Assembly (NCBI RefSeq): GCF_001708445.1
Contig: NZ_CP015637.1
Span: forward strand, 62,001-126,000
Direction of reading: 5' to 3'
Origin: Pseudomonas fluorescens
GTDB lineage: Bacteria; Pseudomonadota; Gammaproteobacteria; Pseudomonadales; Pseudomonadaceae
DNA: 64,000 nt
Shown: positions 38,229 through 62,871 of the stretch, one piece after another
Numbering within the stretch: position 1 is the stretch's first letter
Layout of the letters: each line of letters opens with the position of its first letter
Position numbers and translations under genes: made by a program
Notes under the pieces: model-generated
What the model saw: only the letters and a program-made list of their open reading frames with translations
The model's database searches: none
Told to the model about the DNA's origin: nothing

Positions 38229-38840
38229 CTAAGAAGACAATTCCCCAGAGTCTAGTTCAGGCGCCAGCCACGCCAACAACCGTTCGACGCTCTGTTGTGT
38301 CGACAGCACGCCGGTGTCCAGTACCAGCGAAGCGTGGGGCGGTGGCTCGTAGGGCGAACCAATGCCGGTAAACCCCGGTAGCTCACCCCTGCGGGCGCGG
38401 GCGTAATGACCTTTGGGGTCGCGCCGCTCACAAACCGCCAACGAGGCACTGCACCACACTTCCCGATAATCGGCCCCCAGGCGTTGGGCGAAGACCGCGC
38501 GCAATTGCACCAGGGGCGCAATCATCGCCAGGATCACGATTTGCCCGTTGTCCACCAGCAGCGCCGCCAGTTCGCTGGCGCGGCGGATGTTTTCCAGACG
38601 GTCGCCGTCGGCAAAGCCCAGGTCTTTGTTGAGCCCGACGCGCAAGGCGTCGCCGTCGAGCACGATGCTCTGGCGGCCTTGTTCGAAGAACGCGGCCTGG
38701 AGGCCCTGGGCCAGGGTCGACTTGCCCGAGGCGGGCAGGCCGGTGAGCAGGATCGCCACACCCCGATGGCCATTGCGCGCCTCGCGTTGACGGCGGGTGA
38801 TGCTCGCCGTGGGCGCTACCAGGTTATTGGGCGACGGCAC
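38229..38840 (-). CDS. cysC: Stand-alone adenylylsulfate (APS) kinase
   Basis: A 203-residue APS kinase that phosphorylates APS to PAPS, the sulfuryl donor of sulfotransferases. The P-loop GLPASGKST is at residues 34-42, followed by LDGDALRVGLNKDLGF and DRLENIRR. The DPKGHYARARRGELPGFTGI block is typical. The serine that is phosphorylated in E. coli CysC (ISP motif) is replaced by Ala108 here (MIAP). The GTG at 38840 overlaps the TolC-like gene by 17 bases; an earlier start at 38885 would overlap more. Pseudomonads usually have a fused CysNC, so this extra copy beside an adhesin and a sulfotransferase suggests dedicated PAPS supply. Confidence 0.9.
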   Translation of the reverse strand: MPSPNNLVAPTASITRRQREARNGHRGVAILLTGLPASGKSTLAQGLQAAFFEQGRQSIVLDGDALRVGLNKDLGFADGDRLENIRRASELAALLVDNGQIVILAMIAPLVQLRAVFAQRLGADYREVWCSASLAVCERRDPKGHYARARRGELPGFTGIGSPYEPPPHASLVLDTGVLSTQQSVERLLAWLAPELDSGELSS

Positions 38841-40338
38841 GCGGCACCGGTGCGCTGATGTTGCCGGCGGCCCAGGCCGATTCACGGCTGGCCAGGGCGG
38901 TGGCGATGCTTTGCACGCGGTCGGAGTCCAGTTGCTCCGGCAGCGGGTCGAGACCGGCGCTGGCGAAGATCTGGCCGTAGGCGTTGCGCAGGTCGGCGTA
39001 AGCCAGGTCGCGGCGCAGGTCGGCTTGCAAGGTACTGAGCTCGCCCTGGATCAGGTCGAGTTCGCCCAGGCCAGCCGCTTCGTGTCGATTGCGCAGCTGG
39101 GTGAGGATTTGCCCGTCAATATTGGCCAGTTGCTCGCTGGTCTTGAACTGGCGCACGGCGTCCTGGAAGTTGGCGTTGGCCACATAGATCTGCGCCAGCA
39201 CCGCGATAGACATGGCCTGGCGCCTTGCGGTGGCGACTTCTTCACCGGCCTTGGCCACGTCGATGGCGGCGGGCGCGGACATCACGTTAAACAGGTTCCA
39301 GGTGATTTTGGCGCCGTAGTCGGCCCAGCGATTGTCCACCAGGAACGAGTTGCTGTCGTAGTGGCCACCGGCGGAGAACTCCAGGCCCGGCAGCAGGCGC
39401 AACATGGCCTTGCGGGTTTCGGCGGCGCTGATGCGGCTCTGGTAATCCTGCTCGCGCAATTCCGGCCGATTGGCCAGGGCTTCCTGTTCCAGGCTGGCCA
39501 GGTTGACCTTGAGCTGGGGCACGGTGTAGTCGTCCGGCGTGGCCAGCCTCAACTCAGTCCCCATGGGCAAGTTGATCAGGGTCGCCAGCTCGGTCTTGGC
39601 CAGGGACAAGGCACGGCGCTGTTCCTGTAATTGGCGTGTGGCTTCGATCAGCGAGCGTTGGTAGCCAAGGGCCTGGACCGGGTCGCCGATGCGCTGCTCG
39701 CTCATGCTTTGGCTATCGACCTGGGCTTTGTCGACCCGCGCCATCAGGCTATCGATCTGGGTCAGCAAGCGCTCGGCCGCCACGGCTCGCCAGTAGGCCG
39801 AGCGCACGTCCTGGACGATGGTGTTGATGACCTTGCGCCGACGTTCCTGGATGATCAGGCGCTGGTCACCTTGCTGCTTGGCGCTGATGTAGCTGACACC
39901 AAAGTCGAGTACGTTCCACACCATGGTCAGGTCCGCCACGCGACGATCGCGGTCCTGGGAGGTCGACGGTTCCAGGGACTGGGTACCGGTGAGCACGCTC
40001 TGGCTGCTGGAAGCGTTGGTGTTATTGCGTCCGGCATAGCCTGCGGACAAGGCCATGCGCGGCAGCATGTCGAAGCTGGAGAGATCCGATTGGCGTTTGG
40101 CCAGGGCCTCCTCCATCACCTTCAAACGACCTTCGAGGTTGTATTTGACGGCGCGGGCCATGGCCTGGTGCAGCGTCAACGCGCCGCTCAACGGCTCCTG
40201 ATCCTTGTACATGCCGTGCAGGTCGTTGCGGGCTCGCTGCTCGCTGACACTGCGCTCAATCGGTTCGCTGGTGACTGCACAACCGCTGATCGCCAGCGCC
40301 AGCACACTGGCACCGAACAACATATGACGTGTCTTCAT
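38824..40338 (-). CDS. TolC-like outer-membrane export lipoprotein
   Basis: A 504-residue TolC/OEP family protein with lipobox AISGC after a short signal (MKTRHMLFGASVLAL). The two OEP repeats are long coiled-coil segments (AMARAVKYNLEGRLKVMEEA; NRPELREQDYQSRISAAETR). It is not a NodT-type sequence and differs from the other two outer-membrane factors in this window. The ATG at 40338 was chosen for the signal peptide. It lies 41 bases downstream of the adhesin gene and overlaps cysC, so it is the likely outer-membrane exit for the adhesin. Confidence 0.88.
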   Translation of the reverse strand: MKTRHMLFGASVLALAISGCAVTSEPIERSVSEQRARNDLHGMYKDQEPLSGALTLHQAMARAVKYNLEGRLKVMEEALAKRQSDLSSFDMLPRMALSAGYAGRNNTNASSSQSVLTGTQSLEPSTSQDRDRRVADLTMVWNVLDFGVSYISAKQQGDQRLIIQERRRKVINTIVQDVRSAYWRAVAAERLLTQIDSLMARVDKAQVDSQSMSEQRIGDPVQALGYQRSLIEATRQLQEQRRALSLAKTELATLINLPMGTELRLATPDDYTVPQLKVNLASLEQEALANRPELREQDYQSRISAAETRKAMLRLLPGLEFSAGGHYDSNSFLVDNRWADYGAKITWNLFNVMSAPAAIDVAKAGEEVATARRQAMSIAVLAQIYVANANFQDAVRQFKTSEQLANIDGQILTQLRNRHEAAGLGELDLIQGELSTLQADLRRDLAYADLRNAYGQIFASAGLDPLPEQLDSDRVQSIATALASRESAWAAGNISAPVPRAVAQ

Positions 40339-40379
40339 CCTTGTAATGCCCCTGTTACTACGCCTGGAGTTAAGTGTGT

Positions 40380-43300
40380 TCAAGCCTGCATTTCGCTGAT
40401 GCCGACTTGTTGCAGTGCGTGCGCCAGGTCCATCACTTGGCGCTGTTCTGTGTCTTTGAGCTGCTGCAATTGCTGGCCGAGGCTCGGCGCGCCAAACATG
40501 CCGCGCGCCCCCTGGACCGGATCGCCCGGGCCTTTGATCGATTGGTTGTCGGACGCCTTGAGGGGGCTATCGTCACCGTGGGTTTCGCGATTGAACAGGC
40601 TCGACAAGGTGCTTGAACCAAACACCCCGCCATCGCCGCCGCCCAAGCCCAAAAAGCCGCTGGCGCTGCTGTCACCGGCCCTATCGGTGCCGAATACCTG
40701 GGCGATATAGCTGGGAGCCAAGGCACCGTTGCGCAGAAAGATGCTGCCCACCGGCGGCAAGCCCGCCCCCAGCTCACGTTGCTCGAACAACGGCGGGAAG
40801 CCGATGGGTGAACCGAGGACGCCCGTCGGCCGGCCAAACACGATCGGTTGCAAGGGTGGGTTCGGTGCGTCTTGAGGCGGTGCCGGATCGGTGACGCGGA
40901 ACAATGGGTCGCCGGTCAGCGCTACCGTGTTGATCGCATAATTGTTGGAGTTGGCATAGCCGCTGCCCGCGTTGCCCGACAGGTCATTCACCAAGCGGTT
41001 ATCGAGGGTGATGAAATTGCTCGGGTCATTGAGGTTGGCCGTTGGCGTCAAGGTCGCAGTCCAGGTCTTGCCACCGTCACCGGTGACCAGGTTGGACAAG
41101 CTGCCGTTGGCCACGCTCAGGGCATCCAGATTAAAGCCGCTGACTTTCTCGCTGAAGGTGAACGTCACGGTAGTCGTCTGGCCGACGGTCAAGTTCGGGT
41201 TGGCGATACTGATGGTCGCGGTAGGGCGCTCGCCATCGATCGCGTAGTTATTCGAGATCGCGATGCCGGTGCCAACGTTACCCGCCGTGTCGTTAACCTG
41301 GCCGGCATCCAGCACGATCAGGTTGGTCGCATCGGTGATGGCGGCGGTCGGCGTCAGGGTCGCGGTCCAGGTTTTGCCGCCATCATTGCTCGCCAGGTTG
41401 GACAGCACGGCATTGGCGACACTCAGGTCCGAAAGATCAAACCCGGTGACGGCCTCGCTGAAGGTGATGGTCACCAGCGAAGTGGCACCGATGTTCAGGC
41501 TGTCGTTGGTAACGACTATGGTTGCCGTCGGCCGCTGGGTATCGATGGCGTAGTTGTTGGAATCGGTGCTGCCGCTGCCGGTATTGCCCGAGCCGTTCTG
41601 AACGCCGCTGTTGTCGAGGGTAATCAGGTTGGTGGCGTCGGTGACGTTGCTGGTCGGCGTGAAAGTCGCCGTCCAGGTAACACCGCCGTCGCTGCTGCTC
41701 ACAGTCGTCAAGGTGCCGTTGGCGATAGTCAGGTCGGCGTTGGTGAAGCCGCTGACCGCTTCGCTGAACGTGATGGTGACCAATGAGGTCTCGCCGATAT
41801 TTAACGCATTGTCCGCCACCACGATGGTCGCGGTTGGGCGTACGGTGTCGACGGTGAAATTGACCGAGTTGGTGGTGCCTGTGCCGACGTTACCTGCCAG
41901 GTCGGCGATGCCCGTGTTGTTCAGGGTGATCAGGTTGGTGGTGTCCTTGATACCAGCGGTCGGAGTAAAGGTGGCGGTCCAGGTCACACCCCCATCGGCA
42001 CTGCTCACCGCCGTGAGGGTGCCATTGGGCACGTTCAGGTCACTGTTGGTGAAACCGGTGACCGCCTCGCTGAAAGTGATGGTCACCAGCGACGTTTCAC
42101 CGGCGACCAACGCCGTATCAGCGAGCACGATGGTCGCGGTCGGCCGCTGGCTGTCGACGGCGTAGTTGTTGGAGTCGGTGGTACCGCTGCCGGCATTGCC
42201 CGCCAAATCGGTGACGCCGGTGTTATCCAGGGTGATGACGTTGTTTGCATGAGTCACCCCGTTCACGGGGGTCAGCGTCGCGGTCCAGGTGATGCCACCA
42301 TCGTTGCTGCTCACCGCGCTCAATGTGCCGTTGGCAATCGTCAGGTCGGCATTGGTAAAGCCGGTGACCGCCTCGCTGAAGGTGATGGTCACCAGTGAGG
42401 TCTGGCCGATGCCGAGGGCTGAATCGGTAACCACAAGGGTGGCGGTTGGGCGCTGGGTATCGATGGCGTAGTTGTTCGAATCGGTAGTGCCCGTACCGAC
42501 GTTACCGGCCAGGTCGTTGACGCCCGTGTTGTTCAGCGTGATGAGGTTGGTGGCGTCGGTGACGTTGCTGGTCGGCGTGAAAGTCGCCGTCCAGGTGATA
42601 CCGCCGTCGTTGCTGCTCACCGCGCTCAACGTACCGTTGGCGACACTCAGGTCGGCGTTGGTGAAGCCGCTGACCGCTTCGCTGAACGTGATGGTGACCA
42701 GGGACGTGCCGCCGATGTTCAGCGCCGGGTCGGCAACGACGATGGTCGCGGTCGGCCGCGCGGTATCGATGGTGTAGTTGTTGGAGTCGGTCGTACCGCT
42801 GCCGGCGTTGCCCGCCAGGTCGGCGATGCCGGTGTTGTTCAAGGTGATGAGGTTGGTGGCGTCGGCGATGCTGGCACTCGGGGTGAACGTGCCTGTCCAG
42901 GTGATACCACCATCGTTGCTGGTCACCGCGCTCAACGTACCGTTGGCGACGCTCAGGTCGGCATTGGTGAAGCCGGTGACCGCTTCGCTGAACGTGAATG
43001 TCACCAGCGACGTGCCGCCGATGCTCAGCACAGGGTCGGCGACGACGATGGTCGCGGTGGGCCGCACGGTATCGATGGCGTAGTTGTTGGAGTCGGTCGT
43101 ACCGCTGCCGGCATTACCCGCCAGGTCGGCGATGCCGGTGTTATCCAGGGTGATGAGGTTGGTGGTGTCGGTGAGGCTGGCGCTCGGGGTGAACGTGCCT
43201 GTCCAGGTGATACCGCCATCGTTGCTATTCACCGCGCTCAATGTGCCGTTGGCAATCGTCAGGTCGGCATTGGTGAAGCCGGTGACCGCTTCGCTGAAGG

Positions 43301-46300
43301 TGAATGTCACCAGCGACGTCTCGCCGATTTTCAGCGCCGAGTCGGCAACGACGATGGTCGCGGTCGGCCGCGCGGTATCGATGGCGTAGTTGTTGGAATC
43401 GGTCGTACCGCTGCCGGCATTGCCCACCAGGTCGGCGATCCCGGTGTTGTTCAAAGTGATGAGGTTGGTGGCGTCGGTGAGGCTGGCGCTCGGGGTGAAT
43501 GTGCCTGTCCAGGTGATACCGCCATCGTTGCTGGTCACCGCGCTCAACGTACCGTTGGCGACGCTCAGGTCGGCGTTGGTAAAGCCGGTGACCGCTTCGC
43601 TGAACGTGAATGTCACCAGCGACGTGTCGCCGATTTTCAGCGCCGAGTCGGCAACGACGATGGTCGCGGTCGGCCGCGCGGTATCGATGGTGTAGTTGTT
43701 GGAGTCGGTCGTACCGCTGCCGGCGTTGCCCGCCAGGTCGGCGATGCCGGCGTTGTTCAAGGTGATGAGGTTGGTGGTGTCGGTGATGCTGGCGCTCGGG
43801 GTGAATGTGCCTGTCCAGGTGATACCTCCATCGTTGCTGGTCACCGATGTCAGGGTACCGTTGGCAATCGTCAGGTCGGCATTGGTGAAGCCGGTGACTG
43901 CTTCGCTGAACGTGATGGTGACCAGGGACGTGCCGCCGATGTTCAGCGCAGGGTTGGCTATTACCACGCTTGCGGTCGGGCGCACGGTGTCGATGGTGTA
44001 GTTATTGGACGTGGTAGTACCGGTGCCCACGTTGGTCGAGGTGTCGGTGTAGAGCGTGTTGTCCAGGGTAATGACGTTGGTGCCGCTGGTGACGCCAGCC
44101 GTCGGCGTGAAGGTGGCGGTCCAGTGGATGTTATCGCTGGTGGTCAGGCTGCTCAGGGTGCCGTTGGAGGCCGTCATGTCGGCCAGGCTGAATCCGGTCA
44201 CCGCTTCGCTGAAGGTGATGTTCACCACGGAGGAGCCACCGAGGTTCAGCCCGGGGCTGGCCACGGCGACTGTCGCCGTCGGCCGTACCGTATCGACGGC
44301 GTAGTTATTGGAGGTGGAGGTACCGCTGCCCGCCAGACCATTCGACACGCCGGTGACACCGGTATTGTCCAGCACAATATGGTTGCTCGCGCTGGTCACG
44401 CTCGCATCTGGGGTGAACGTCGCCGTCCAGGTGAGGCCGCCATCATTGGAGATGACGCTGCTCAAGGTGCCGTTGGAGACCGTCAGGTCGGCGTTGGTGA
44501 AACCGGTGACGGCCAGGTTGAAGGTAATGGTCACCTGCGAAGTGCTGCCAATGTGCTGGGCCGCGTTCGCCACTACGATGGTCGCGGACGGCGTCGGTGC
44601 GTAGGCGGTGTTCACTGTACCGCCGTCGTTGAAGATATTGTTCACGGCAGCCACGGAGGCACCCGTGCTGCCTCCACCCAACGCCGGGCCACCGGAACCG
44701 CTGCCACCGACGTTGCCGCTCATGGCCGCAAAGTTGGCGGCCGTCATCAACAGCGTGCCTTTGTTCCAGATCGCACCAACGCCTTTGCCCGCCGCGCCGC
44801 CCGAGTCTGCTGAACCCCCCAGGCCACCGCCACCACCGCCACCTCCGCCGGCCGCGATGTTATTGGAGATCACCGAAGTGCCGACGACCGTCAGGGTGCC
44901 GGAGCTGGCGTTGTAGATACCGCCACTGGCCGAAGCCCCTGCCCGGCCAGGCTTGTCCCACCCGGAACCGCCACCGCCGCCGCCAATGGAAATAGTGCCG
45001 TTGTTTGCGGTGCCGCCGGCACCGCCATTGCTGTAGTTGGCTGCCCCCATGCCACCCGCGCCGCCGCTGCTGCTGCCACCACGGCCGCCCATATAGTTCG
45101 GGTTGTAGCCGCCACCATTGCCACCGGTGTTGGCGCTACCGGACGTCCCACCATAAACGCCGGTACCGAAGCCCGAAGTGCCGCCATGGCCGCCGGCCTG
45201 GCCGCCAAGAGCACCGCCGCCGCCGCCGCCACCACCCACCGCGCCGCCAACGTAGGGCGCGGTGACCCCACCGCCCCCGCCACCGCCCGAGGCCGCGTTG
45301 CTGGTCACCCTGACATTGTTCAAGGTCAGGTTGCCGAGGTTGACAATACCGCCGCCCATTGCCGCTGTGCCGTCGACACCCGCCGCTGCGCCATTACCCG
45401 CCGCCAGGCCTTGGGTGATGACCAAGCCATCCAGCGTCGCCGTCACACCGCTCCCCACCCTCAGCACCTGAGTCTTGTACTGCCCGCTGAGGGTCACATC
45501 CGCCACACCGTCTTGGTTCAGATCACCGGCGATGGTGACGTTTTTGCTGATGACCAATTGCGAGTTGAGGTTAACCGTCATGGTGGTACTGAACGTGACG
45601 GTATCGCCGGACACCGAATCGCTCAGAGCCTGGCGCAATGAGCCGACGCCACTGTCACCGTTGTTGACCACCGTGATCGTGGCCAACCCGTACTGGTACG
45701 CCGACATCGCCTGGTACGACAACGCGGTATGGCTCTCGATGGAGCCGGTGGCAATTTCCAACGTCCAATCGCCACCCTCGCCGGTGCGGTTGCTGGACGC
45801 GGCAATATCACGGCCGGTCAATTGCGCCAGGGAGTCGACGAAGTTGAGCCCTTTGCTGTCCCCTGCCGTGTTGCACGCGTAGATCAGAATGTCGCCGCCC
45901 ACATTCATGTCCTGGCCGATCTGCGCCAGCACTTCGCTGCGGGCCGCGATGTTGTCGGCCGACAAATAGGTGCTGCCCAGCCACAAATCGCCGGTGTTGC
46001 CGTGGGCGAGGATCTGCACCGAGCTCACGCCCTGGTGGCTGCCCAGATAATCGGCAATCTGCTGCAGACCGTCTTTGCTGGCATCCAGCTGCACCACCTC
46101 GGTGCCGGGGGCGACGCCCTTGAGCAAGTTGGCGGAGTCTTTGACCCGGGCGTCGACGAACACTACGGTCTGCCCCGGAACGGTAACCGGCGCCGGTGTG
46201 GCCGGCGCGTCGGTTTGCCCATGGGTGTCTTTGCTGGCGGTGGCGTGCTCGGTCGTCGGCGCCTTGGCGGCCGCGTCGGCAGTAGCATGGCTGTCCGCCT

Positions 46301-46433
46301 GGGCGGCATCGGCCACAGTGGCGGCCACCGCGCCGTCAAACAACATGCGCGGTTCCAGGAACATGATCATCGGCGTCGCCAGAGGGTTGGCGCCTGTTGT
46401 TGTCTGCCGTGCCTTACCTTTGCTCCACCACAT
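40380..46433 (-). CDS. Large LEPR/DUF4347 adhesin with 12 Ig-like repeats
   Basis: A 2,017-residue surface protein. In order: a basic N terminus with no Sec signal (MWWSKGKARQ) and the LEPRMLFDGA motif (residues 26-35); an Ala/Thr-rich linker; a DUF4347 domain (about 90-245) with a caspase-like His144 (LAHGN) and Cys187 (YACNT) pair; a beta-helix-like stretch (250-370); a Gly-rich region (375-560) with runs of up to nine glycines; 12 Ig-like repeats of about 102 residues (about 615-1830); and a 150-residue C terminus. No RTX nonapeptides are visible. The ATG at 46433 has GGTGAG upstream; 46469 is less likely. It is preceded by a terminator and followed by the TolC-like gene. Adhesion is inferred. 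Confidence 0.9.
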   Translation of the reverse strand: MWWSKGKARQTTTGANPLATPMIMFLEPRMLFDGAVAATVADAAQADSHATADAAAKAPTTEHATASKDTHGQTDAPATPAPVTVPGQTVVFVDARVKDSANLLKGVAPGTEVVQLDASKDGLQQIADYLGSHQGVSSVQILAHGNTGDLWLGSTYLSADNIAARSEVLAQIGQDMNVGGDILIYACNTAGDSKGLNFVDSLAQLTGRDIAASSNRTGEGGDWTLEIATGSIESHTALSYQAMSAYQYGLATITVVNNGDSGVGSLRQALSDSVSGDTVTFSTTMTVNLNSQLVISKNVTIAGDLNQDGVADVTLSGQYKTQVLRVGSGVTATLDGLVITQGLAAGNGAAAGVDGTAAMGGGIVNLGNLTLNNVRVTSNAASGGGGGGGVTAPYVGGAVGGGGGGGGALGGQAGGHGGTSGFGTGVYGGTSGSANTGGNGGGYNPNYMGGRGGSSSGGAGGMGAANYSNGGAGGTANNGTISIGGGGGGSGWDKPGRAGASASGGIYNASSGTLTVVGTSVISNNIAAGGGGGGGGGLGGSADSGGAAGKGVGAIWNKGTLLMTAANFAAMSGNVGGSGSGGPALGGGSTGASVAAVNNIFNDGGTVNTAYAPTPSATIVVANAAQHIGSTSQVTITFNLAVTGFTNADLTVSNGTLSSVISNDGGLTWTATFTPDASVTSASNHIVLDNTGVTGVSNGLAGSGTSTSNNYAVDTVRPTATVAVASPGLNLGGSSVVNITFSEAVTGFSLADMTASNGTLSSLTTSDNIHWTATFTPTAGVTSGTNVITLDNTLYTDTSTNVGTGTTTSNNYTIDTVRPTASVVIANPALNIGGTSLVTITFSEAVTGFTNADLTIANGTLTSVTSNDGGITWTGTFTPSASITDTTNLITLNNAGIADLAGNAGSGTTDSNNYTIDTARPTATIVVADSALKIGDTSLVTFTFSEAVTGFTNADLSVANGTLSAVTSNDGGITWTGTFTPSASLTDATNLITLNNTGIADLVGNAGSGTTDSNNYAIDTARPTATIVVADSALKIGETSLVTFTFSEAVTGFTNADLTIANGTLSAVNSNDGGITWTGTFTPSASLTDTTNLITLDNTGIADLAGNAGSGTTDSNNYAIDTVRPTATIVVADPVLSIGGTSLVTFTFSEAVTGFTNADLSVANGTLSAVTSNDGGITWTGTFTPSASIADATNLITLNNTGIADLAGNAGSGTTDSNNYTIDTARPTATIVVADPALNIGGTSLVTITFSEAVSGFTNADLSVANGTLSAVSSNDGGITWTATFTPTSNVTDATNLITLNNTGVNDLAGNVGTGTTDSNNYAIDTQRPTATLVVTDSALGIGQTSLVTITFSEAVTGFTNADLTIANGTLSAVSSNDGGITWTATLTPVNGVTHANNVITLDNTGVTDLAGNAGSGTTDSNNYAVDSQRPTATIVLADTALVAGETSLVTITFSEAVTGFTNSDLNVPNGTLTAVSSADGGVTWTATFTPTAGIKDTTNLITLNNTGIADLAGNVGTGTTNSVNFTVDTVRPTATIVVADNALNIGETSLVTITFSEAVSGFTNADLTIANGTLTTVSSSDGGVTWTATFTPTSNVTDATNLITLDNSGVQNGSGNTGSGSTDSNNYAIDTQRPTATIVVTNDSLNIGATSLVTITFSEAVTGFDLSDLSVANAVLSNLASNDGGKTWTATLTPTAAITDATNLIVLDAGQVNDTAGNVGTGIAISNNYAIDGERPTATISIANPNLTVGQTTTVTFTFSEKVSGFNLDALSVANGSLSNLVTGDGGKTWTATLTPTANLNDPSNFITLDNRLVNDLSGNAGSGYANSNNYAINTVALTGDPLFRVTDPAPPQDAPNPPLQPIVFGRPTGVLGSPIGFPPLFEQRELGAGLPPVGSIFLRNGALAPSYIAQVFGTDRAGDSSASGFLGLGGGDGGVFGSSTLSSLFNRETHGDDSPLKASDNQSIKGPGDPVQGARGMFGAPSLGQQLQQLKDTEQRQVMDLAHALQQVGISEMQA
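40935..44597. repeat. Twelve tandem repeats of about 306 bp encoding Ig-like domains
   Basis: The period is 306 bases (102 codons). Each unit begins with RPTATIVVAD and contains SEAVTGFTNADL, NGTLSAV, SNDGGITWT and NNY. Units between about 42470 and 44000 are most alike at DNA level; the outer units are more diverged. Such arrays are prone to copy-number change. Confidence 0.93.
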
Positions 46434-46471
46434 GCTGCTCACCCGTTTGTCGAATGCTGATACCCGCAATG

Positions 46472-46498
46472 AAAAAAACCGCGATCAGCCGATCGCGG
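46472..46498 (-). terminator. Intrinsic terminator at the end of the sulfotransferase gene
   Basis: On the minus strand an eight-base GC-rich stem (ccgcgatc/gatcgcgg) with loop ggct is followed by seven thymines. The sulfotransferase stop codon lies in the hairpin. It falls only about 40 bases before the adhesin start, so it either ends the upstream transcript or acts as an attenuator. Confidence 0.85.
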
Positions 46499-47348
46499 CA
46501 TCGGCTTTGGTGCGAATTACATTGGCGGCGCTCAGGCTGCCATCCCGCCAGAAATCCATATGCGCAAACTGCTCGAAGAGGTCCGGCGGCAGGATCGTAC
46601 GCCGAGGCTGCAAAGCGACCTTGGGCTTGACCCGATGCAACCCGCTGACGCCCAGAGCCTCGTCGAAGTCCGGCGCGTCATAGCTGAGGTTGTCGAAGTC
46701 ATGCTCGAACCACGGCTGCTCGATAAATTCGTAGACCAGCCGCATCACGCGCTCGGGCGCCTGGGATAGCAGGTCGTAGTCGACGATCAACATGGACCCG
46801 GCGTTTTCACCGTAGTACGCCTCTTTGAGGGCCGACCAGGCATAGCCCACGAGGCGATTGCGCTGGCCCAGGGTTTCGACACGGCTGTATACGGTGTTGC
46901 GCTCGATGTCGTCGTTGAACAGCTTGGTGTTCTCGAACGGATTGGCGCGATAGAGGCGTTCCAGGCTGTCCATGATCCACGCCACGTTGCGCACACAGGC
47001 AATGACCTTGGCCTGGGGAAACAGGTCATGCAGGGCGGGCATGCGCGCGCACCACTGGCGGTTGGTGTCGAACACCACCGGGGTGGAGGGTTTGTCGCCG
47101 TAATAAGCATCGAACAAGCCGCGCAACAGGCGGCGGCGGGTGTCCGGATCAATGACCGAGCCAAACTCGCTGCCGGCGCTGCACTGCGCCAGCACACCAT
47201 TGAACAACGACCCTATGGGACTGCTCATGCCGGCGCGAAAGCGTGGGTTCTGCAACAGGATTGCAGAGAGCAAGGTCGAGCCGGAACGCGGCAGACCGGA
47301 GATAAAGTGATACTGCAATCCTTTCACCACTTTGTAGGACAAATCCAT
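46485..47348 (-). CDS. PAPS-dependent sulfotransferase
   Basis: A 287-residue sulfotransferase-family protein. The 5'-phosphosulfate loop is FISGLPRSGST (about residues 15-25) and the 3'-phosphate site is VIACVRNVAWIMDS (Arg120 and Ser128). There is no signal peptide, so it acts in the cytoplasm. Relatives transfer sulfate from PAPS to glycans, lipids or tyrosines, and the acceptor here cannot be read from sequence. It is directly upstream of the adhesin gene, and an APS kinase lies downstream of the adhesin and TolC-like genes. That context suggests sulfation of the adhesin or of a glycan on it. Confidence 0.9.
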   Translation of the reverse strand: MDLSYKVVKGLQYHFISGLPRSGSTLLSAILLQNPRFRAGMSSPIGSLFNGVLAQCSAGSEFGSVIDPDTRRRLLRGLFDAYYGDKPSTPVVFDTNRQWCARMPALHDLFPQAKVIACVRNVAWIMDSLERLYRANPFENTKLFNDDIERNTVYSRVETLGQRNRLVGYAWSALKEAYYGENAGSMLIVDYDLLSQAPERVMRLVYEFIEQPWFEHDFDNLSYDAPDFDEALGVSGLHRVKPKVALQPRRTILPPDLFEQFAHMDFWRDGSLSAANVIRTKADAAIG

Positions 47349-47434: not shown

Positions 47435-49048
47435 TTAGCGACAGCCCTCCGGCTGCGAAGGCTCTGGCCCGCGGCAAAGCACGAACAGGCGTGCCCTGGC
47501 TCCACCGCCATCCTGGCGCAAAAGTTCGCGCCAATCGGTGGGAATCGGCGCGAAATCGTCCGGCAAATCAGTGCTGCTGATCAGCCAGACGCGGCGCGTA
47601 TCCGCCGGTAAAGCCGACAGATTATCGAGGTAGATACGCCCGCCGTCCTGGTCCACCAGCGTACCGAAGCCATACGCGTTAGGCCGGGTCGACGTGCCAT
47701 CCGGTTTGGGCGGGGTATAGAGCTGCAATTGGGCGTCAGTCTGGTCGTAATACACGTAGCTCAAGTACCACAGCATGTCGCTAAGGACGATGCGGTCGCC
47801 TTCCTGATAGTTACGGTTGACGAACTCCACCGGCACGTTGAAATTATCGCGGTCGTCCACGGTTGCATTGCTCTTCAGCCCCAGCAGTTCCACGCTGATA
47901 AACAGCACCAGGAACGCGGCGCCCCAGCGTGACAGGCGTTTAGGCAGGCGGTCGATGGCCAGGGCCACCATGATCGGCAAGCCAAGGGCATACGCCGTGA
48001 GGTAGCGCTCGATGAACACCGGGGAAATAAACGATACCGCATACACCAGCAACAGCGGCAGCAGGAAGAATAGCGCCAGCAGGCCGGCCGGCCGATGGGC
48101 TTCGCGATCACGCCAGGCGGTCACCCCCACGACGGCGATCAGTAGCAGCGGGAACGACCAGAACAATGGTGCCCAGAAACCGATGCCCTCGTCCTGGAGC
48201 ATGAACTGCCAGATCATCGACGGGACGGAGATCAGCGTGACCGGGTCTTCCCAGCCGATATCCCCCCCGGTCTTGAGCTGTTCGACGTGCTGCACCAGGT
48301 CCACCAAGTTGGGCAACCAGGGCAAGTACAGCACTACAATCAGGACATTGGCGCACCACCACGCTGGGCGCAGGAGCAACCGTCGGCCAGGTGCCTGGGA
48401 CGAGTACAACAACCCCAGGTAGGCCCAATGCACCATTACACACAAGGCCATGAAGTAATGGGTATAGAAACCGGCCGCCATCAGCAGCACATAGGCCGCC
48501 AGGTAGCGCGTGCGCTCGGGGCGGCGTACCCAATACACCAGCGCCAGCGTCGCAGCCAGCAGCCACACGGCCAGCAGCGAGTACATACGCACTTCCTGGC
48601 TGTATCGCACGGCAGTGGGGTACAGCGCCAGCAGCACACCCGCCAGCACGGCGGCACGATAGGTGGACAGTAGCCGCGTCAGCCAGATACCCAGGCCCAC
48701 CGCGACCACGCCGGGAATCGCGCTCATGCCGCGAATCGACCAGATGCCGTCGCCAAACAGGCCGATCCAGCCGCGCAGCATGAAAAAATACAACGGGGGG
48801 TGCACATCATGGGCCGCGTGGAACCACAGGTCGTCTACCGCGTATTCGCTGAGCAGCAGGCTCGAACCTTCGTCACCCCAGATCGCCGCCGCTGTCAGGC
48901 CATAAAAACGTACGGCCATGGCCAGCGCCAGAATCGGCACCCACCATAGCCGGCTGAGCCAACCGGCACCCGCCCAGGCAGCCGAGAGGCGACTGACTGC
49001 GGGAAAAACCCCAACTTTGTCGTCTTGTTCTACCACGGACCGTCGCAC
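47435..49048 (-). CDS. GT39-like membrane glycosyltransferase
   Basis: A 537-residue polytopic protein of the ArnT/PMT (GT39/GT83) superfamily, with 10-12 membrane helices. The first periplasmic loop carries the catalytic-type acidic pair (IWGDEGSSLL) and the conserved DVHPPLYFFML segment. The C-terminal 120 residues form a soluble domain. These enzymes move sugars from polyprenyl-phosphate carriers to proteins or lipids. The GTG at 49048 has AGAGGA upstream; the longer frame to 49150 has no site. It is 86 bases upstream of the sulfotransferase on the same strand and may glycosylate the adhesin or another surface molecule. Confidence 0.85.
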   Translation of the reverse strand: MRRSVVEQDDKVGVFPAVSRLSAAWAGAGWLSRLWWVPILALAMAVRFYGLTAAAIWGDEGSSLLLSEYAVDDLWFHAAHDVHPPLYFFMLRGWIGLFGDGIWSIRGMSAIPGVVAVGLGIWLTRLLSTYRAAVLAGVLLALYPTAVRYSQEVRMYSLLAVWLLAATLALVYWVRRPERTRYLAAYVLLMAAGFYTHYFMALCVMVHWAYLGLLYSSQAPGRRLLLRPAWWCANVLIVVLYLPWLPNLVDLVQHVEQLKTGGDIGWEDPVTLISVPSMIWQFMLQDEGIGFWAPLFWSFPLLLIAVVGVTAWRDREAHRPAGLLALFFLLPLLLVYAVSFISPVFIERYLTAYALGLPIMVALAIDRLPKRLSRWGAAFLVLFISVELLGLKSNATVDDRDNFNVPVEFVNRNYQEGDRIVLSDMLWYLSYVYYDQTDAQLQLYTPPKPDGTSTRPNAYGFGTLVDQDGGRIYLDNLSALPADTRRVWLISSTDLPDDFAPIPTDWRELLRQDGGGARARLFVLCRGPEPSQPEGCR

Positions 49049-49298
49049 CTCAATTCCTCTGAAACTGCCTCTTTTCAAGGCAAACCCTGCGCATGCGCAA
49101 ACAAGCGCCACTCTAGGACAAAAGCCTCGGTTTCGCTTGCTGTTTTGCACCCGCCAGGCGTTGTGTTACCGGCTGGGGGTCACCTGACCATCCTGCCTGC
49201 CCACACTCTTCGGGATGTTGCGCAAAGGCCCGGCGCACACGGGGTTTCAACGGTTTATGCGGCTTACCGCTACGCGGCTGGCGTCCTCCTGACGCTTG

Positions 49299-51395
49299 TC
49301 AGAACCCACTTTCCCGTACCCCCAGCGCTGCCGCCCGTCGCCAGGCCACGCCCAGTACCGACTCACTGCGCCCTTGCAGCATCACCACTCCGCGCAGCGG
49401 TTGATGGGGGGTAGGGATCGTTTCAACGCTTTTCAGTCGCGCACCGTATTGAGCCTGTACCGGCTCCGGTCGCTGATTTTCGTCGCGGCGCACGGCAATT
49501 GGCCCATGGTGATCGGAGGTCAGTGCCTCCTGGTCCAGATAGGCCACGCCGTTGGCGTCGATGTCGGTCAATACCACAGGGATGGCCACGTGCATCGGGT
49601 CATCGGCGATAAACCGTCCAGTGGAGCCCGGCGCCACCCGCCACAGTTCGGCCTCGGCCAGGTAACCGCGCAGGCGTGCGCCCTCTTCCACCACCTGGGC
49701 CAGTGAGTCCTTGGGCGACAGCCAACGGCCCACGCTCAATTGCGGCAGTACATCGCGCACCCTGCCGGCATGGGGGGCGCGCAACAGCAGGCGTTCGCGC
49801 TGGGCGGCCAGCCCACGGTATTCGGCCAGGGCCTGGGACAGACGCTGATCGTTGATCCCGGCATCCGCAGCCGTTTCACTGCGCCCGGCCTGGCGGCGCA
49901 TCTGCAGCTGCAAAATCTCCACTTCACGGCGCACGATGCTTTGCCGCGCGTCCAAATCCGGTGACTCCAGTTCGTACAAGACCTGGCCCTGGGTGACGGT
50001 TTGCCCATCCGCCACCCGCAACTGCTTGACCCGCGCGGCCACCGGCGCGTGCAACGCGCTGGCGCGCCCGGCTTCGAGCATGGCCGGCAGCTCGACGGCG
50101 CTGCGCCACGGCACCACCAGCGCCAGCCCGATCAACACCAACCCCAGGCTGCTCAACAGCACACGCGGCGCATGGGCCTGGCTGCGACGACTCCACCATT
50201 CGCGCCATTCCTTGAAGATCGGCAGGAAGATGAACCAGACCAACTCCACCAGCATCAGGAAGATCCCGAGCAGTTTGAAGAACAGGTGATACACCGCCAG
50301 GGCAATCCCCAGAAACAGCGCCGCCCGCCACAGCCACGCCAGGTAGCCCCACGCCAACAAGCGTCGTTGCATCGTCGGCGACCACGGCTCCGGCGCCGGC
50401 TCGCCATACCCGAACAACAGTTCACGCAGGCGCCAACGGCACAGGGCAAAGGCGCGGCCTTGCAGGTTATCCACCCCCCATAAATCGCTGATCAAGAAGT
50501 AGCCATCAAAACGCATGAACGGGTTGAGGTTGATCGCCAACGTCGTCAGCCACGTGGCACTGGCCAACATGAACGCCGCGGTGCGCGCCGGGCCATCCGG
50601 CAGCAGCGCCCAGGCAAGCAAGGCGATACAAGCCAGCAGCAACTCGGCCATCACCCCGCCGGCACCGATCATCAACCGCGCACGGCGATCATTGACCCGC
50701 CAGGCGTCGCTCACATCGGTGTAGAACATCGGCAACAGCACCATGAACGCCACACCCATGCTCTGAACCCGACAGCCAGCGCGTTTGGCCATATAGGCAT
50801 GGCCGAACTCATGGCACAACTTGGCGAAGCACAACACCACACCAAACGCCAAGGCGCCGCCGAGGCTGAACAAGTGCGGGAACGTCGCCAGAAAGCGCTG
50901 CCAGTCGCGCGCGACCAAAAACACGCCCAGGCCCAGAACTGCCGGCAGGCCGTACCGCAGCAAGCCCGGACCGAAGCGCGCCAGCCAGGGCCATGTCCGG
51001 TTGAGAAAAGCGTCCGGACGCCACAGCGGAATGCGGAAAAACAGGTACTGATGCAGCAACACCTGCCACAGGCTCTGCTTTTGTGCGGCCGCTTTATAGA
51101 GGTAACTGGCGCGCTGCTGCGGATCAAGGCCGGTGATCAGGTCATGGGCGCGCAAAAAGCTCAGCAGCTCCTCCACTTCGCTGATGCCCAGGGGCAAACC
51201 CGGTTCACGGTTGGCGGCTTGCAGGACTTTCTCTGGATCGCCCAGGGACCAGTGGCGCAGCAAACGAATGGCGGTGGCGCCGAGTTTGAAATAGCGCCCG
51301 CGCACCGGGTCGGCCAGGGTCCAGCGTGGCGAACCGTCCAGCGCCGCGCCGGCACTGGACAGTTGCAGGTCTTCGCGCAGTGTGGGCAGGTTCAT
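49299..51395 (-). CDS. PqqD-like/M50 zinc protease/HlyD fusion protein
   Basis: A 698-residue fusion of the putative peptide zinc metalloprotease group. Residues 1-90 resemble a PqqD-like peptide-binding domain (WTLADPVRGRYFKL). Residues about 145-410 are an M50 site-2-protease-like membrane domain with HEFGH at 195-199 and NPFMRFDGY at 291-299 (third zinc ligand Asp297). Residues 440-698 are a HlyD-type adaptor with a lipoyl half-motif (VKQLRVADGQTVTQGQVLYE). All zinc ligands are intact. Its start overlaps the stop of the upstream adaptor gene by one base. It probably takes part in export of the adhesin, with or without proteolysis. Confidence 0.88.
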   Translation of the reverse strand: MNLPTLREDLQLSSAGAALDGSPRWTLADPVRGRYFKLGATAIRLLRHWSLGDPEKVLQAANREPGLPLGISEVEELLSFLRAHDLITGLDPQQRASYLYKAAAQKQSLWQVLLHQYLFFRIPLWRPDAFLNRTWPWLARFGPGLLRYGLPAVLGLGVFLVARDWQRFLATFPHLFSLGGALAFGVVLCFAKLCHEFGHAYMAKRAGCRVQSMGVAFMVLLPMFYTDVSDAWRVNDRRARLMIGAGGVMAELLLACIALLAWALLPDGPARTAAFMLASATWLTTLAINLNPFMRFDGYFLISDLWGVDNLQGRAFALCRWRLRELLFGYGEPAPEPWSPTMQRRLLAWGYLAWLWRAALFLGIALAVYHLFFKLLGIFLMLVELVWFIFLPIFKEWREWWSRRSQAHAPRVLLSSLGLVLIGLALVVPWRSAVELPAMLEAGRASALHAPVAARVKQLRVADGQTVTQGQVLYELESPDLDARQSIVRREVEILQLQMRRQAGRSETAADAGINDQRLSQALAEYRGLAAQRERLLLRAPHAGRVRDVLPQLSVGRWLSPKDSLAQVVEEGARLRGYLAEAELWRVAPGSTGRFIADDPMHVAIPVVLTDIDANGVAYLDQEALTSDHHGPIAVRRDENQRPEPVQAQYGARLKSVETIPTPHQPLRGVVMLQGRSESVLGVAWRRAAALGVRESGF

Positions 51396-52714
51396 CAGAG
51401 GCCGACGCTCTGGCGCAGGCCCGCCAACGGCCGACGCAGCAGGTACAGGGCCAGCGGCGCGCGGCCGCCATACAGCTTCGCCGTACCGCGCAGGCCGATA
51501 CGCGGTGGCGAGCCATCGAATTGTGCATCGAGGCGATAGGCCAATTGCCCGCCCGGCGTGGGCTGCGCTTCATAGGCGGCACGTTGCAGAGTGGCGAGAT
51601 GGCGTTGCAGTGGGTCACTGTCGAGGAACAGCGCTACCTGGGCATTGGGCGCCAAGGCAATGGCATCGCCCACCGCCAGCTCAATGCGCAATTCCGCCTG
51701 GGCAGGGTTGGCAATCTGCAACAAGCGCTCGCCGGTCTGCACCGGTTTTCCGGTCCAGCGGTCAGCATCAGCGAATACAGCGATACCGTCGCGCTCGGCA
51801 CGCACTTCGCTGCGTTTGAGCAGTTCACGCGCATAGTCGCGGTCGGCGCGTTTTTGCTCGACGCGGGCCGCCAGCAGGTCGATCTTCGAACTGGATTCGG
51901 CATCGGCAAAGGCGCGCTGGGAATTGGCCTTGAGCTCCGCTTCAGCGACACCCAGAGCACGCGCCGCCACATCGGCCTGCGCCGTTAGCGTGGTGCTTTC
52001 GAAGCGCAGCAACAGGTCGCCGGTTTTTACCGACTGATTGGGCTTGACCAAAAACTCGGCGATGACGCCATCCAGCGGCGCCGCCACCACTTGCCCGGCC
52101 TGCGGCACCACTTCGGCGGGCGCCAGCACCGATTGGCGCACCGGGATCAACAGCATCAGCAACAACGCCACCAGCACCGCTATCCAGCGTTTACGGGTCA
52201 GGCGCAGGCGCCACGGCTGGCGTGGCTGCAACGCGTGCCAGGCATGGCTGCAGGTGTCGCCAAAATGCGCCAGCAGCACTTGTTCGGCCGGGCTCCACGG
52301 GGTATCCCGCGCCAGCCACAGGCCGCCGAACACCCGGCCCTGGGGATCCATCAACGGCAGCCAGAACACGTGCCCGGCGGACAGGCTCTGCCAATCGGCT
52401 TGCACCGCGCCACTTAATTGCTCAGCCAGGACCACCCGCGCAGTCTGGCTCAACGCCAGTTTGTGCAACTGCGCCACCGCCTGCTCGACAAACGCCACGA
52501 ACGGCGCATTCGAATCGACGCTGCTCACCGCCGTCACCGCCCTCACTTTGCCGGCGATCAACAGCGCGGTGTGGCGATAGCCGAACAGGGGCTGGCTGTC
52601 GTTGACCAGGCTGTAGGCCAGTTGCTCGATAGTACGCGCGGCACGGGTCTGGCGTTCAAGGTCGAGAAACTGCGCAAATACGCGCTCAGCGTGGCCCGGC
52701 ATCGGTGCGTTCAT
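51395..52714 (-). CDS. GAF-like/HlyD adaptor protein
   Basis: A 439-residue protein with a cytoplasmic N-terminal domain (about residues 1-165) that resembles a GAF domain (HVFWLPLMDPQGRVFGGLWL). A membrane helix (about 175-195) and a periplasmic HlyD adaptor follow (APLDGVIAEFLVKPNQSVKTG, helical hairpin 245-310, barrel). GAF-adaptor fusions occur beside M50-HlyD proteins, where the GAF part may sense or gate. It overlaps the small adaptor gene upstream by four bases and the M50 fusion downstream by one. Confidence 0.83.
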   Translation of the reverse strand: MNAPMPGHAERVFAQFLDLERQTRAARTIEQLAYSLVNDSQPLFGYRHTALLIAGKVRAVTAVSSVDSNAPFVAFVEQAVAQLHKLALSQTARVVLAEQLSGAVQADWQSLSAGHVFWLPLMDPQGRVFGGLWLARDTPWSPAEQVLLAHFGDTCSHAWHALQPRQPWRLRLTRKRWIAVLVALLLMLLIPVRQSVLAPAEVVPQAGQVVAAPLDGVIAEFLVKPNQSVKTGDLLLRFESTTLTAQADVAARALGVAEAELKANSQRAFADAESSSKIDLLAARVEQKRADRDYARELLKRSEVRAERDGIAVFADADRWTGKPVQTGERLLQIANPAQAELRIELAVGDAIALAPNAQVALFLDSDPLQRHLATLQRAAYEAQPTPGGQLAYRLDAQFDGSPPRIGLRGTAKLYGGRAPLALYLLRRPLAGLRQSVGL

Positions 52715-53484
52715 TGCAATTGCGCAAAATGGGCCGTGCCACTCATGCCCGCCAGCAGCCCGCTGGCATTGGGTAAGGTGGCGACCAGCAGCAGCGTCTG
52801 GCTCCCCTCATCGATGCGCGCGCCGAGGCGTTTGACCGTGGCGGTGAACGCCTGGCCGGTTTCATCGGGGGTGAAATTGAACGTCTGGCCCGGCTTGAGT
52901 TTGCCCATCCAGCGCGACGGCACCAGCAGGTGAATTTCCAGGCTGTGGTTGTCGACGATTTCCAGCAACGGCGCCCCTGCCGAGACGCTTTCATAGCGTT
53001 GGACCTTGCGCTGCACCACTTGGCCATCATACGGCGCCAGCACGCTGCAGCGCTTGACCTGCACTTGGTAAACCTGGGATTGGGCCTGGGTTTCAGTGAG
53101 CTTGGCTTCGGCGCGGGCCACTTCAAAACGCCCGACGGAGTTGAGCGCCGCCAGTTGTTTGTTGTGGGCCAGTTCTTCACTGGCCCCCCGGCTGGCAGCC
53201 TGGGCGGCGTTCAATTGGGCCTGGTAGGCCGAGCAATCGAAACGCGCCAGGGTGTCGCCCTTCTTGAACGACTCGCCTTCGCTGAAAGGCAGTTCAACAA
53301 TGCGCCCCGACAATTCGCTGGCCAGCACCGCCTGGTCGCGAGCGCGCAGCACACCGCGGGCGTCACTGGAGGCGCTGGTCGACGCCGCAAGCGGGTGGTC
53401 CAACAACGGATCGTCCGCCATGACCATCGGCGCAACGCCCATCAGGCAGATAAAACTCAACGTCCCTCTTCGTAACCGCTCCAT
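52711..53484 (-). CDS. Small HlyD/RND-type periplasmic adaptor
   Basis: A 257-residue adaptor with a Sec signal (cleavage near MVMA), the lipoyl half-motifs LPFSEGESFKKGDTLARFD and APYDGQVVQRKV, and a short helical hairpin. It has no membrane helix after the signal, so it is a free or lipid-less periplasmic protein. The ATG at 53484 follows GGAGG at five bases. It is the first of three coupled adaptor genes and is divergent from the TPR gene. Confidence 0.87.
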   Translation of the reverse strand: MERLRRGTLSFICLMGVAPMVMADDPLLDHPLAASTSASSDARGVLRARDQAVLASELSGRIVELPFSEGESFKKGDTLARFDCSAYQAQLNAAQAASRGASEELAHNKQLAALNSVGRFEVARAEAKLTETQAQSQVYQVQVKRCSVLAPYDGQVVQRKVQRYESVSAGAPLLEIVDNHSLEIHLLVPSRWMGKLKPGQTFNFTPDETGQAFTATVKRLGARIDEGSQTLLLVATLPNASGLLAGMSGTAHFAQLQ

Positions 53485-53641
53485 ACGATCCTCCCTGACC
53501 ATGATTGCAGTCTATGTCAGCACGGTTAAATTGCCACCGCCCCAATCGGATAAGTCAGTAATTTGTGTAGGGCTTCACCGATGCTTTTGTCGGATCACGC
53601 TATGATTGCCACCCCCAAGGATTCAGGATCAAGGACACGTC

Positions 53642-61335: not shown

Positions 61336-62871
61336 CTAGGTCGGTGCGCGAGGCGGAAAAATCCGCGTGGGCATCCAGAAAATCAGCAGGATCAACGCCG
61401 CCGCAACAGCGGCCATGACGTAATAGAGATCCGAAGACGTGAGCACTACGGCCTGCTCGTGCAGGCGGTGGGCAAGCCCCGACGCGTCGCCCTCGGCCAG
61501 GGGCGAGTTGCCCAGGCGGTCCACCAGCATGGTCGAGTGAAAGTGCAGGCGCTGGGTGGTCAGTGCATCCAGCACGCCGGTGGCAATCACGGCGGCCAGG
61601 CCTTTGACGGTGTTGAACCAGGCCGAGGCAAACGGCCCATCCGCCGGTTGGATGCTGCCGGTGGAGAGCATCAGCAACGGCAACACCGCCATGGGCTGCC
61701 CGAAGATTTGCAGCAGGTACAGGCCGTAGAAGTCGTCGCGAATCCACGCCGAGGTCAAGTGCGTGCTGCCCAGGCAGGACAGCACCAACATGCCCAGCCC
61801 GATGCCCAGCACCCAGCGGCAATCGACCCAACGCAGGTTGCACAACGCCGCCACCAGCGGCAGCGCAATCAATTGTGGCAGCGCCATCAGCAGCATCAGC
61901 GGCGCGGTTTGCAGGGGCCGATAACCCTGGACCTGGGCGAGGAAACTCGACGGGATGATGATCACCGAGGTCAGCACCATCAACACCCCGGCCAGCACGA
62001 TCAGGGCAAACGACAGGTTGCGCAGGCCAAGCATCTGCAATTTGAAGAACGGTATTGGCTGCGACCATTCATTGAGCAGGAACAGCACCAGCAACACCGT
62101 GCCGCCACACAGCAGGAAGGTGATCAGGCCCGACTCGAACCAGTCCAGGCGATTGCCCTGCAACAGGCCGATCACCAGCATGCAGATCGCCGGGAACCCC
62201 AGCAGCAGGCCGCGCCAGTTGAACTGCTTGAGGCGCTCCAGGCGCAGCGGGTCTTGTGGCAGGCCGTAGGCCACGGCGGCCATCGCCAGCAGGCACGGCC
62301 CGACGATCTGCCAGAACGCCCACTGCCAGCCGACATACTCGGTCCACAGCGCCGCCAACGGCGTGCCCAGGCTCGGGCCGAACGTGGCGGTGAGCGCGTA
62401 ACCGGCCAAGCCATACAGCTTGACGTTGGCCGGCAGGAAGCGCAGCGCCACGGTCATCAGCATCGGCGGCAACGCCCCACCCGCCAGGCCCTGGACGGTG
62501 CGCAGCAGCAGCAGGCTTTCGTAGTTCGGCGCGAAGGGGCACAGGATGCCCAGCACAGTGAACAGAGCGATCGCGCACAGGGTGAAACGGCGCAGGGAAA
62601 ACGTCACCGAACACCAAGGCGCGAAGGCCATGGCCGACACGGAAGTGGCGGTGTAGGCGGCGACCAGCCAGGTGCCTTCATCAAAACCGATGTACAGCGC
62701 ACCGCGAATATCCGCGAGGGCCACCTTGGTGACCATCTCGTTGAGACCGGACACCAGCACCGCCAGCAACACGCCGACCAGGCCGATGATGATGCGCGGG
62801 CCAAATACAGGCGGGGTGATGGCCGTGGGTTTGGCTGCGGCCGCAAGGGAGGGGGCAGCGAGGGAAGTCAT
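61336..62871 (-). CDS. DHA2-family MFS drug transporter (EmrB type)
   Basis: A 511-residue major facilitator with 14 predicted membrane helices, the EmrB/QacA length and arrangement. Family features include VSGLNEMVTKVALADI near the start and the VQGLAGGALPPML segment in the fifth helix region. It uses the proton gradient to export hydrophobic drugs through the EmrA-like adaptor and the OMF. It is the first gene of the pump operon. A LysR gene lies upstream on the same strand, with a REPIN between them. Confidence 0.94.
   Translation of the reverse strand: MTSLAAPSLAAAAKPTAITPPVFGPRIIIGLVGVLLAVLVSGLNEMVTKVALADIRGALYIGFDEGTWLVAAYTATSVSAMAFAPWCSVTFSLRRFTLCAIALFTVLGILCPFAPNYESLLLLRTVQGLAGGALPPMLMTVALRFLPANVKLYGLAGYALTATFGPSLGTPLAALWTEYVGWQWAFWQIVGPCLLAMAAVAYGLPQDPLRLERLKQFNWRGLLLGFPAICMLVIGLLQGNRLDWFESGLITFLLCGGTVLLVLFLLNEWSQPIPFFKLQMLGLRNLSFALIVLAGVLMVLTSVIIIPSSFLAQVQGYRPLQTAPLMLLMALPQLIALPLVAALCNLRWVDCRWVLGIGLGMLVLSCLGSTHLTSAWIRDDFYGLYLLQIFGQPMAVLPLLMLSTGSIQPADGPFASAWFNTVKGLAAVIATGVLDALTTQRLHFHSTMLVDRLGNSPLAEGDASGLAHRLHEQAVVLTSSDLYYVMAAVAAALILLIFWMPTRIFPPRAPT

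Follow-up and report, generated by a model that had tools for sequence, protein, structure and literature searches.

So far, the main known cases of protein sulfation are those of animals and plants and that of a single bacterial peptide. In the available excerpts of the open-licence literature on bacterial protein tyrosine sulfation, that peptide, RaxX, is the only documented case (PMC6637879, PMC4216712). In Xanthomonas oryzae, the gene for the sulfotransferase RaxST lies beside exporter genes, the genes raxP and raxQ for 3'-phosphoadenosine 5'-phosphosulfate (PAPS) are needed, and exit is through TolC (PMC4216712). Proteobacteria and Cyanobacteria encode homologues of RaxST with about 40% identity; their genetic contexts are diverse and other substrates are presumed for them, according to the available part of a 2019 survey (PMC6637879). 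Here we describe a related locus on a 64,000-nucleotide stretch of the Pseudomonas fluorescens genome (the window; positions 62,001 to 126,000 of contig NZ_CP015637.1), where the gene for a Sulfotransfer_3 protein of 287 residues, ST1 (46485..47348, minus strand; Pfam E 7.7e-16), is followed by that for a giant adhesin of 2,017 residues (40380..46433, minus strand). The closest known system is RaxST/RaxX/RaxAB with raxP and raxQ. We predict, with somewhat better than even confidence, that ST1 sulfates the adhesin protein in or near a glycine-rich domain.

As in the rax system, the ST1 gene lies beside presumed exporter genes, a gene for PAPS supply and a gene for a TolC-like protein. In ST1, the residues R21 and S128 of the PAPS site are 107 residues apart, as are the PAPS-motif residues Arg-11 and Ser-118 in the available part of the RaxST description (PMC6637879), a comparison of published positions and not an alignment with RaxST; both ST1 residues are invariant in 36 aligned sequences. 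Unlike the rax system, the proposed substrate is a giant adhesin instead of the 60-residue RaxX peptide, no ABC or C39 transporter was found in the ST1 operon, cysC is located within the operon, and the arrangement is spread over several families.

ST1 has the fold of a PAPS-dependent sulfotransferase, as judged by the residues of its 5'-phosphosulfate-binding (5'-PSB) and 3'-phosphate-binding (3'-PB) motifs and by its overall structure. The nearest solved folds are those of tyrosylprotein sulfotransferases (TPST), which also gave the best PDB profile match, and ST1 shares the 5'-PSB pattern GxPRSGxTL with animal TPST1 and TPST2. This fold points to a protein rather than a glycan as the more likely acceptor. 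Identity to TPST1/2 is about 20%, and whereas the animal enzymes are Golgi-lumenal, the bacterial ST1 should be cytosolic since no signal peptide is visible in its sequence. Among 120 close homologues out of 7,999, the names used in the database are ‘sulfotransferase’, ‘sulfotransferase family protein’ or ‘hypothetical protein’.

ST1 is present in 82 of 298 Pseudomonas genomes. A DUF4347 adhesin lies within 3 kb of 80 of the 85 ST1 matches in this genus, the remaining five being distant copies with 45–49% identity, and 64 of the 144 Pseudomonas DUF4347 matches have no ST1 within 3 kb. These numbers are based on 85 of 87 ST1 rows (left aside were, from G286, the second fragment of a frame-split gene and, from G061, a partial match of 64 residues) and on 144 of 149 DUF4347 rows, five partial or weak ones having been dropped. 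In named genomes, the adhesin match begins within 1 kb downstream of ST1 on the same strand in 65 of 77 ST1 loci, and the adhesin-linked loci include Cupriavidus, Pandoraea, Chitiniphilus, Massilia, Acidovorax and a Magnetococcales bin. Many ST1 loci come from near relatives or from the same species reached twice, so that the counts are not independent events, and the open reading frames of the flanking loci, selected simply by length with the longest taken first, are uncurated. Conservation in 80 of 85 and 65 of 77 cases places the arrangement beyond chance. The original prediction had proposed a neighbourhood survey for conserved linkage, and the genes do co-occur in related genomes. With a threshold of E 1e-50 or better, ST1 was found outside Pseudomonas in 56 of 117 genomes of the L106 family, in 16 of 215 genomes of the L091 family, in 2 of the 120 genomes from the L099 order (starting genome counted) and in 1 of 148 genomes of the class of L100, which is the starting genome itself. 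The new locus from the L099 order, L215, has no glycine-rich partner. ST1 appears to be split over two frames in G286 (C107) and truncated in L102 (P. cyclaminis); either the gene can be lost or the assemblies are faulty.

The adhesin has 2,017 residues when read from the MWWSK start (46433) and 2,029 when read from an upstream TTG. It contains an LEPRxLFDG sequence (recognized by eye), DUF4347, a glycine-rich region and 12 Big_12 stretches. In the adhesin beside ST1, DUF4347 is followed by a region of about 220 residues of which up to half are Gly, with several Tyr among them; in the window it covers residues ~390–612 of the 2,029-residue frame (44634..45302, minus strand) and is the proposed region of sulfation. 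A stretch of 100 residues with at least 42 Gly within the 500 residues after DUF4347 occurs in 66 of 72 scorable ST1-linked adhesins but in none of the 64 ST1-less DUF4347 proteins of the Pseudomonas set, three of which (L181, L182, L184) have fewer than 400 residues past DUF4347. The two highest-scoring ST1-less proteins (32 Gly) resemble runs of RTX nonapeptides. Three tyrosines are well conserved in 72 aligned glycine-rich adhesins, counted without the wrong-frame row L065: Tyr479 in 66, Tyr519 in 65 and Tyr623 in 65. Tyr479 (codon at 45033..45035, minus strand), which lies in the glycine-rich stretch, is a candidate acceptor.

Large glycine-rich proteins of other kinds also adjoin ST1. Over all partner kinds, a neighbour with at least 40 Gly per 100 residues, on the same strand and within 1.5 kb, is present at 89 of 135 ST1 loci, compared with 3 of the 718 other open reading frames of at least 250 residues located there. 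Unrelated large glycine-rich proteins are encoded beside ST1 in Pseudomonas (L120–L122) and in Rhodanobacteraceae (L194, L226–L231, L233 and L235). By Pfam, the proteins of L121, L122 and L228 have both ESPR and an autotransporter barrel, that of L233 has ESPR only, and that of L227 has no match; because the L233 and L227 proteins, unlike that of L228, lack a confirmed barrel, we refer to the L233 set as ‘type V-like exoproteins’. Homologues of the L233 protein are encoded by 31 genes in 18 of 117 genomes of the family, several of them matching in the C-terminal part only, and ST1 lies within 13 kb of 22 of the 31. The ST1 neighbour in an Actinomycetes bin (L100, 281–5968) is a PGRS-like protein of 1,895 residues with 51% glycine and clusters of tyrosine, and that in Asticcacaulis (L099) is an RTX protein with Gly/Tyr patches. 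Locus L198 (3–7035) contains a pair of genes that resembles two-partner secretion, for a ShlB/FhaC-type transporter (558 residues) and a 1,494-residue protein of YDG and MBG repeats, and immediately after it a strongly diverged gene similar to ST1.

The ratio of Tyr to Phe is 726:448 in glycine-rich segments versus 2,202:4,297 elsewhere in the same proteins. Tyrosine enrichment was dropped as evidence for sulfation since type V-like exoproteins without adjacent ST1 look much alike (143:134 in ten without and 255:206 in 15 with adjacent ST1).

The sulfate donor could be supplied locally. CysC (38229..38840, minus strand) belongs to the adenosine 5'-phosphosulfate (APS) kinases by curated family scores, with 192.2 bits for PRK03846 (cut-off 163) and 187.8 bits for TIGR00455 (cut-off 138.7). 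Two more strong APS-kinase matches (open frames of 205 and 665 residues) and two weak ones were found elsewhere in the genome, so the CysC of the operon is an addition. Based on 104 typed CysC rows, at least 35 of the 80 adhesin-linked Pseudomonas copies of ST1 have cysC no more than 20 kb away, and at 33 of these it is on the same strand, 7–12.5 kb downstream of ST1; both counts are lower bounds, as the rows are only part of the CysC matches and some contigs end in between. Twenty-four named loci extend at least 2 kb past the TolC-like gene, and there we found cysC alone in five, ST2 (a second sulfotransferase, see below) alone in 15, both in three and neither in one, L083, which has cysC upstream instead. 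Further, four loci found in the family to which Massilia L091 belongs (L200, L203, L204 and L205) have cysC directly upstream of ST1. The position of cysC varies but its partnership with ST1 is kept, which argues for function and not for inherited order. A local PAPS pool made by CysC, as had been proposed originally, is thus a fair reading. In rhizobia, NodH/NoeE with NodPQ likewise couple a bacterial sulfotransferase to a PAPS supply of its own. The acceptor there is a lipo-oligosaccharide, and NoeE is only a weak match to ST1 (19.3 bits in NCBIfam, cut-off 500). Sulfated Nod factors are mentioned in PMC4216712.

Seven DUF4347 loci without ST1 (L113–L119) have cysC about 9–10 kb from DUF4347 and encode a protein of about 331 residues, ST2, between the M50 metalloprotease-like gene and the adhesin gene. 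ST2 is a diverged sulfotransferase related to Sulfotransfer_3, as indicated by its Pfam match and its fold: 14 of 15 family members match PF13469 (best E 2e-9), with the first member alone falling under the Pfam cut-off (23.9 versus 27), and the top 17 Foldseek rows for the model are all sulfotransferases (best E 5.4e-5). ST2 was detected in 24 of 80 chosen genomes and in none of the 18 of them that lack DUF4347. In eleven ST1-less loci its distance from DUF4347 is 2.2–3.1 kb, in another eleven that have ST1 it is 8.4–9.8 kb, and two copies are on contigs without DUF4347. Its placement beside DUF4347 both with and without ST1 indicates that two unlike sulfotransferases attach to one adhesin family. 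Examples are L113 (2047–3027), L117 (1858–2838) and L048 (19556–20515), and related genes occur outside Pseudomonas, in L205, L207 and other loci. At L199 (3641–5706), a tandem pair of sulfotransferase genes lies upstream of one DUF4347 protein.

ST1 and CysC might instead make a sulfated small molecule or lipid, the linkage reflecting a co-inherited surface island with no shared substrate. We consider this very improbable in view of the closeness of ST1 to one giant exoprotein gene, which it often overlaps, of its pairing with unrelated exoproteins in different phyla, and of the second sulfotransferase, ST2, at the same loci.

From the observed gene order, protein families, fold and co-distribution, we infer the following course for sulfation of the adhesin protein. 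CysC, by its family membership, would phosphorylate APS to PAPS, and cytosolic ST1 would move the sulfate from PAPS to the adhesin inside the cell, before export. The likeliest acceptors would be tyrosines of the glycine-rich domain after DUF4347, as suggested by the co-distribution of this domain with ST1 and by the tyrosylprotein sulfotransferase fold. The adhesin would then leave the cell via the M50-HlyD, HlyD and TolC-like proteins, an export route to which the conserved linkage points. Sulfotyrosines would add negative charge to the glycine-rich surface and might thereby alter the binding of the adhesin. More tentatively, and at a little less than an even chance, the locus may represent a widespread type of bacterial protein sulfation in which a RaxST-like enzyme with TPST fold, often with a local APS kinase, sulfates Tyr in glycine-rich domains of giant surface proteins regardless of their export route (M50/HlyD/TolC, type V, RTX or PGRS-like), with ST2 serving the same adhesins.

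Several findings weigh against sulfation of the glycine-rich tyrosines by ST1. The catalytic glutamate of TPST is located between the two PAPS motifs; it is missing from ST1 at the aligned column, where ST1 reads GMSSP and TPST1 GEETR in an alignment of sequences only. Another residue of ST1 may act as catalytic base in its place. An acidic context is typical of TPST sites, and the glycine-rich tyrosines of the window adhesin mostly lack it. By the neighbour rule given above, 46 of the 135 ST1 loci have no glycine-rich partner. In the glycine-rich parts of the Rhodanobacteraceae type V-like exoproteins, the proteins without adjacent ST1 have 143 Tyr in 7,293 residues versus 255 in 11,768 for those with it, being roughly equal to the latter in glycine and close to them in tyrosine; the genomes of the former carry ST1 copies elsewhere. 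A Pseudomonas autotransporter homologue of 64% identity (G067, L173) occurs in a genome without ST1. On the tree of DUF4347, the glycine-rich trait needs only three changes, and ST1 six. The contrast of 66 of 72 versus 0 of 64 thus corresponds to few evolutionary events, and the weight of the argument rests on the unrelated partner families. Independent contrasts in this tree, one on starred branches and three on the best tree, are too few for a test. Finally, six ST1-linked adhesins (two from Massilia, two from Acidovorax, one each from the Magnetococcales and a gammaproteobacterial bin) are without the glycine-rich domain. The tree set contains 14 ST1-linked DUF4347 proteins without it, so that the domain cannot be the universal acceptor.

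These 14 proteins also speak for modification elsewhere on the adhesin, be it at acidic-flanked Tyr of the Big_12 repeats (DSNNYAIDT), at Ser/Thr or in DUF4347. The window adhesin has Tyr with Asp nearby in about ten of its Big_12 repeats, and at least three NNYxID-like repeats are present in 54 of 75 ST1-linked glycine-rich adhesins versus 10 of 63 ST1-less proteins, although most ST1-less sequences are partial. However, none of the 14 domain-less proteins has NNYxID-like repeats, and by Pfam there is no DUF4347 in the ST1-linked autotransporters and PGRS-like proteins. We regard an acceptor site outside the glycine-rich domain as quite unlikely.

A further point on the opposing side comes from Rhodanobacteraceae, where ST1 copies adjoin genes of carbohydrate use, for a LacI regulator, a GH2 exo-glucosaminidase-like protein and a TonB plug (L104–L111, L222, L224 and L237; some were checked). 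An APS-kinase homologue is encoded near these copies in L219, L221 and L224; in the last case it is fused to an ATP sulfurylase, and ST1 lies 2 bases upstream of it. The acceptor at these loci is possibly a glycan, with the link to PAPS still holding. Extended to ST1 in general, the enzyme would sulfate a glycan, either attached to the adhesin or part of a surface polysaccharide, and the operon would merely co-express components of the coat. The breadth of the Sulfotransfer_3 family and the weak match to NoeE fit this explanation, as does a PMT_2/GT39-like membrane protein (47435..49150, minus strand; Pfam) encoded between the M50 gene and ST1. Its gene ends 86 bases upstream of ST1, as originally described, and had been taken as a possible glycosylation step. 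Among the 61 named loci whose flank is long enough, only 25 have a homologue upstream; as the other 36 have none, the gene is not a constant part of the module and glycosylation was dropped as a core step. With the fold of ST1 pointing to a protein, we consider a glycan acceptor unlikely. The original prediction is hence upheld in its co-occurrence of genes and its local PAPS supply, and not in its glycosylation step.

The complete run of genes on the minus strand was confirmed in the order HlyD, HlyD, M50-HlyD, PMT_2/GT39-like, ST1, adhesin, TolC-like outer membrane efflux protein (OEP) and CysC; the last four are placed and ordered as originally reported, including the 2,017-residue length of the adhesin and, with CysC read from a GTG at 38840, the 17-base overlap of cysC with the TolC-like gene. 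Gaps along the run, from the first HlyD gene to cysC, are −4, −1, 148, 86, 51, −4 and −17 bases, which makes a single operon likely. The presumed export set consists of an HlyD/RND-type adaptor (52711..53502), an HlyD-type adaptor (51395..52714), both recognized by Pfam, an M50 metalloprotease-like protein with an HlyD region (49299..51395) and the TolC-like OEP (38824..40383; Pfam, lipobox by eye), all on the minus strand. At 49 of 58 named loci, an M50 gene likewise precedes the adhesin gene. A giant repetitive protein, HlyD adaptors and TolC in one operon are reminiscent of type I-secreted adhesins such as LapA. The membrane fusion protein and OEP of type I secretion are present, but no ABC-transporter family was detected by Pfam among ten open reading frames scanned, eight of which are the operon genes; M50-HlyD is found instead, and an ABC transporter may be encoded elsewhere in the genome. 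The locus also differs from the LapA type in the DUF4347/LEPRxLFDG amino terminus of the adhesin and in the sulfation genes. Small phage-tail-collar-like proteins (PF07484; one was checked) and GNAT-type acetyltransferases are repeatedly encoded between M50 and adhesin genes, for example in L113 (3754–4341), L048 (9110–9697), L062 (7755–8342) and L094 (6759–8394).

We found no report of a pairing of a sulfotransferase with a giant adhesin, nor of tyrosine sulfation in glycine-rich autotransporters, in the available excerpts of the open-licence literature, subscription journals being outside this coverage, which agrees with the original statement that sulfated adhesins are undescribed in Pseudomonas. 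If our prediction is correct, Pseudomonas living in soil or with plants, and their relatives in other families, would commonly carry sulfated adhesins on the cell surface. The RaxST homologues reported in 2019 would thereby gain a class of substrates, and sulfation could alter bacterial attachment.

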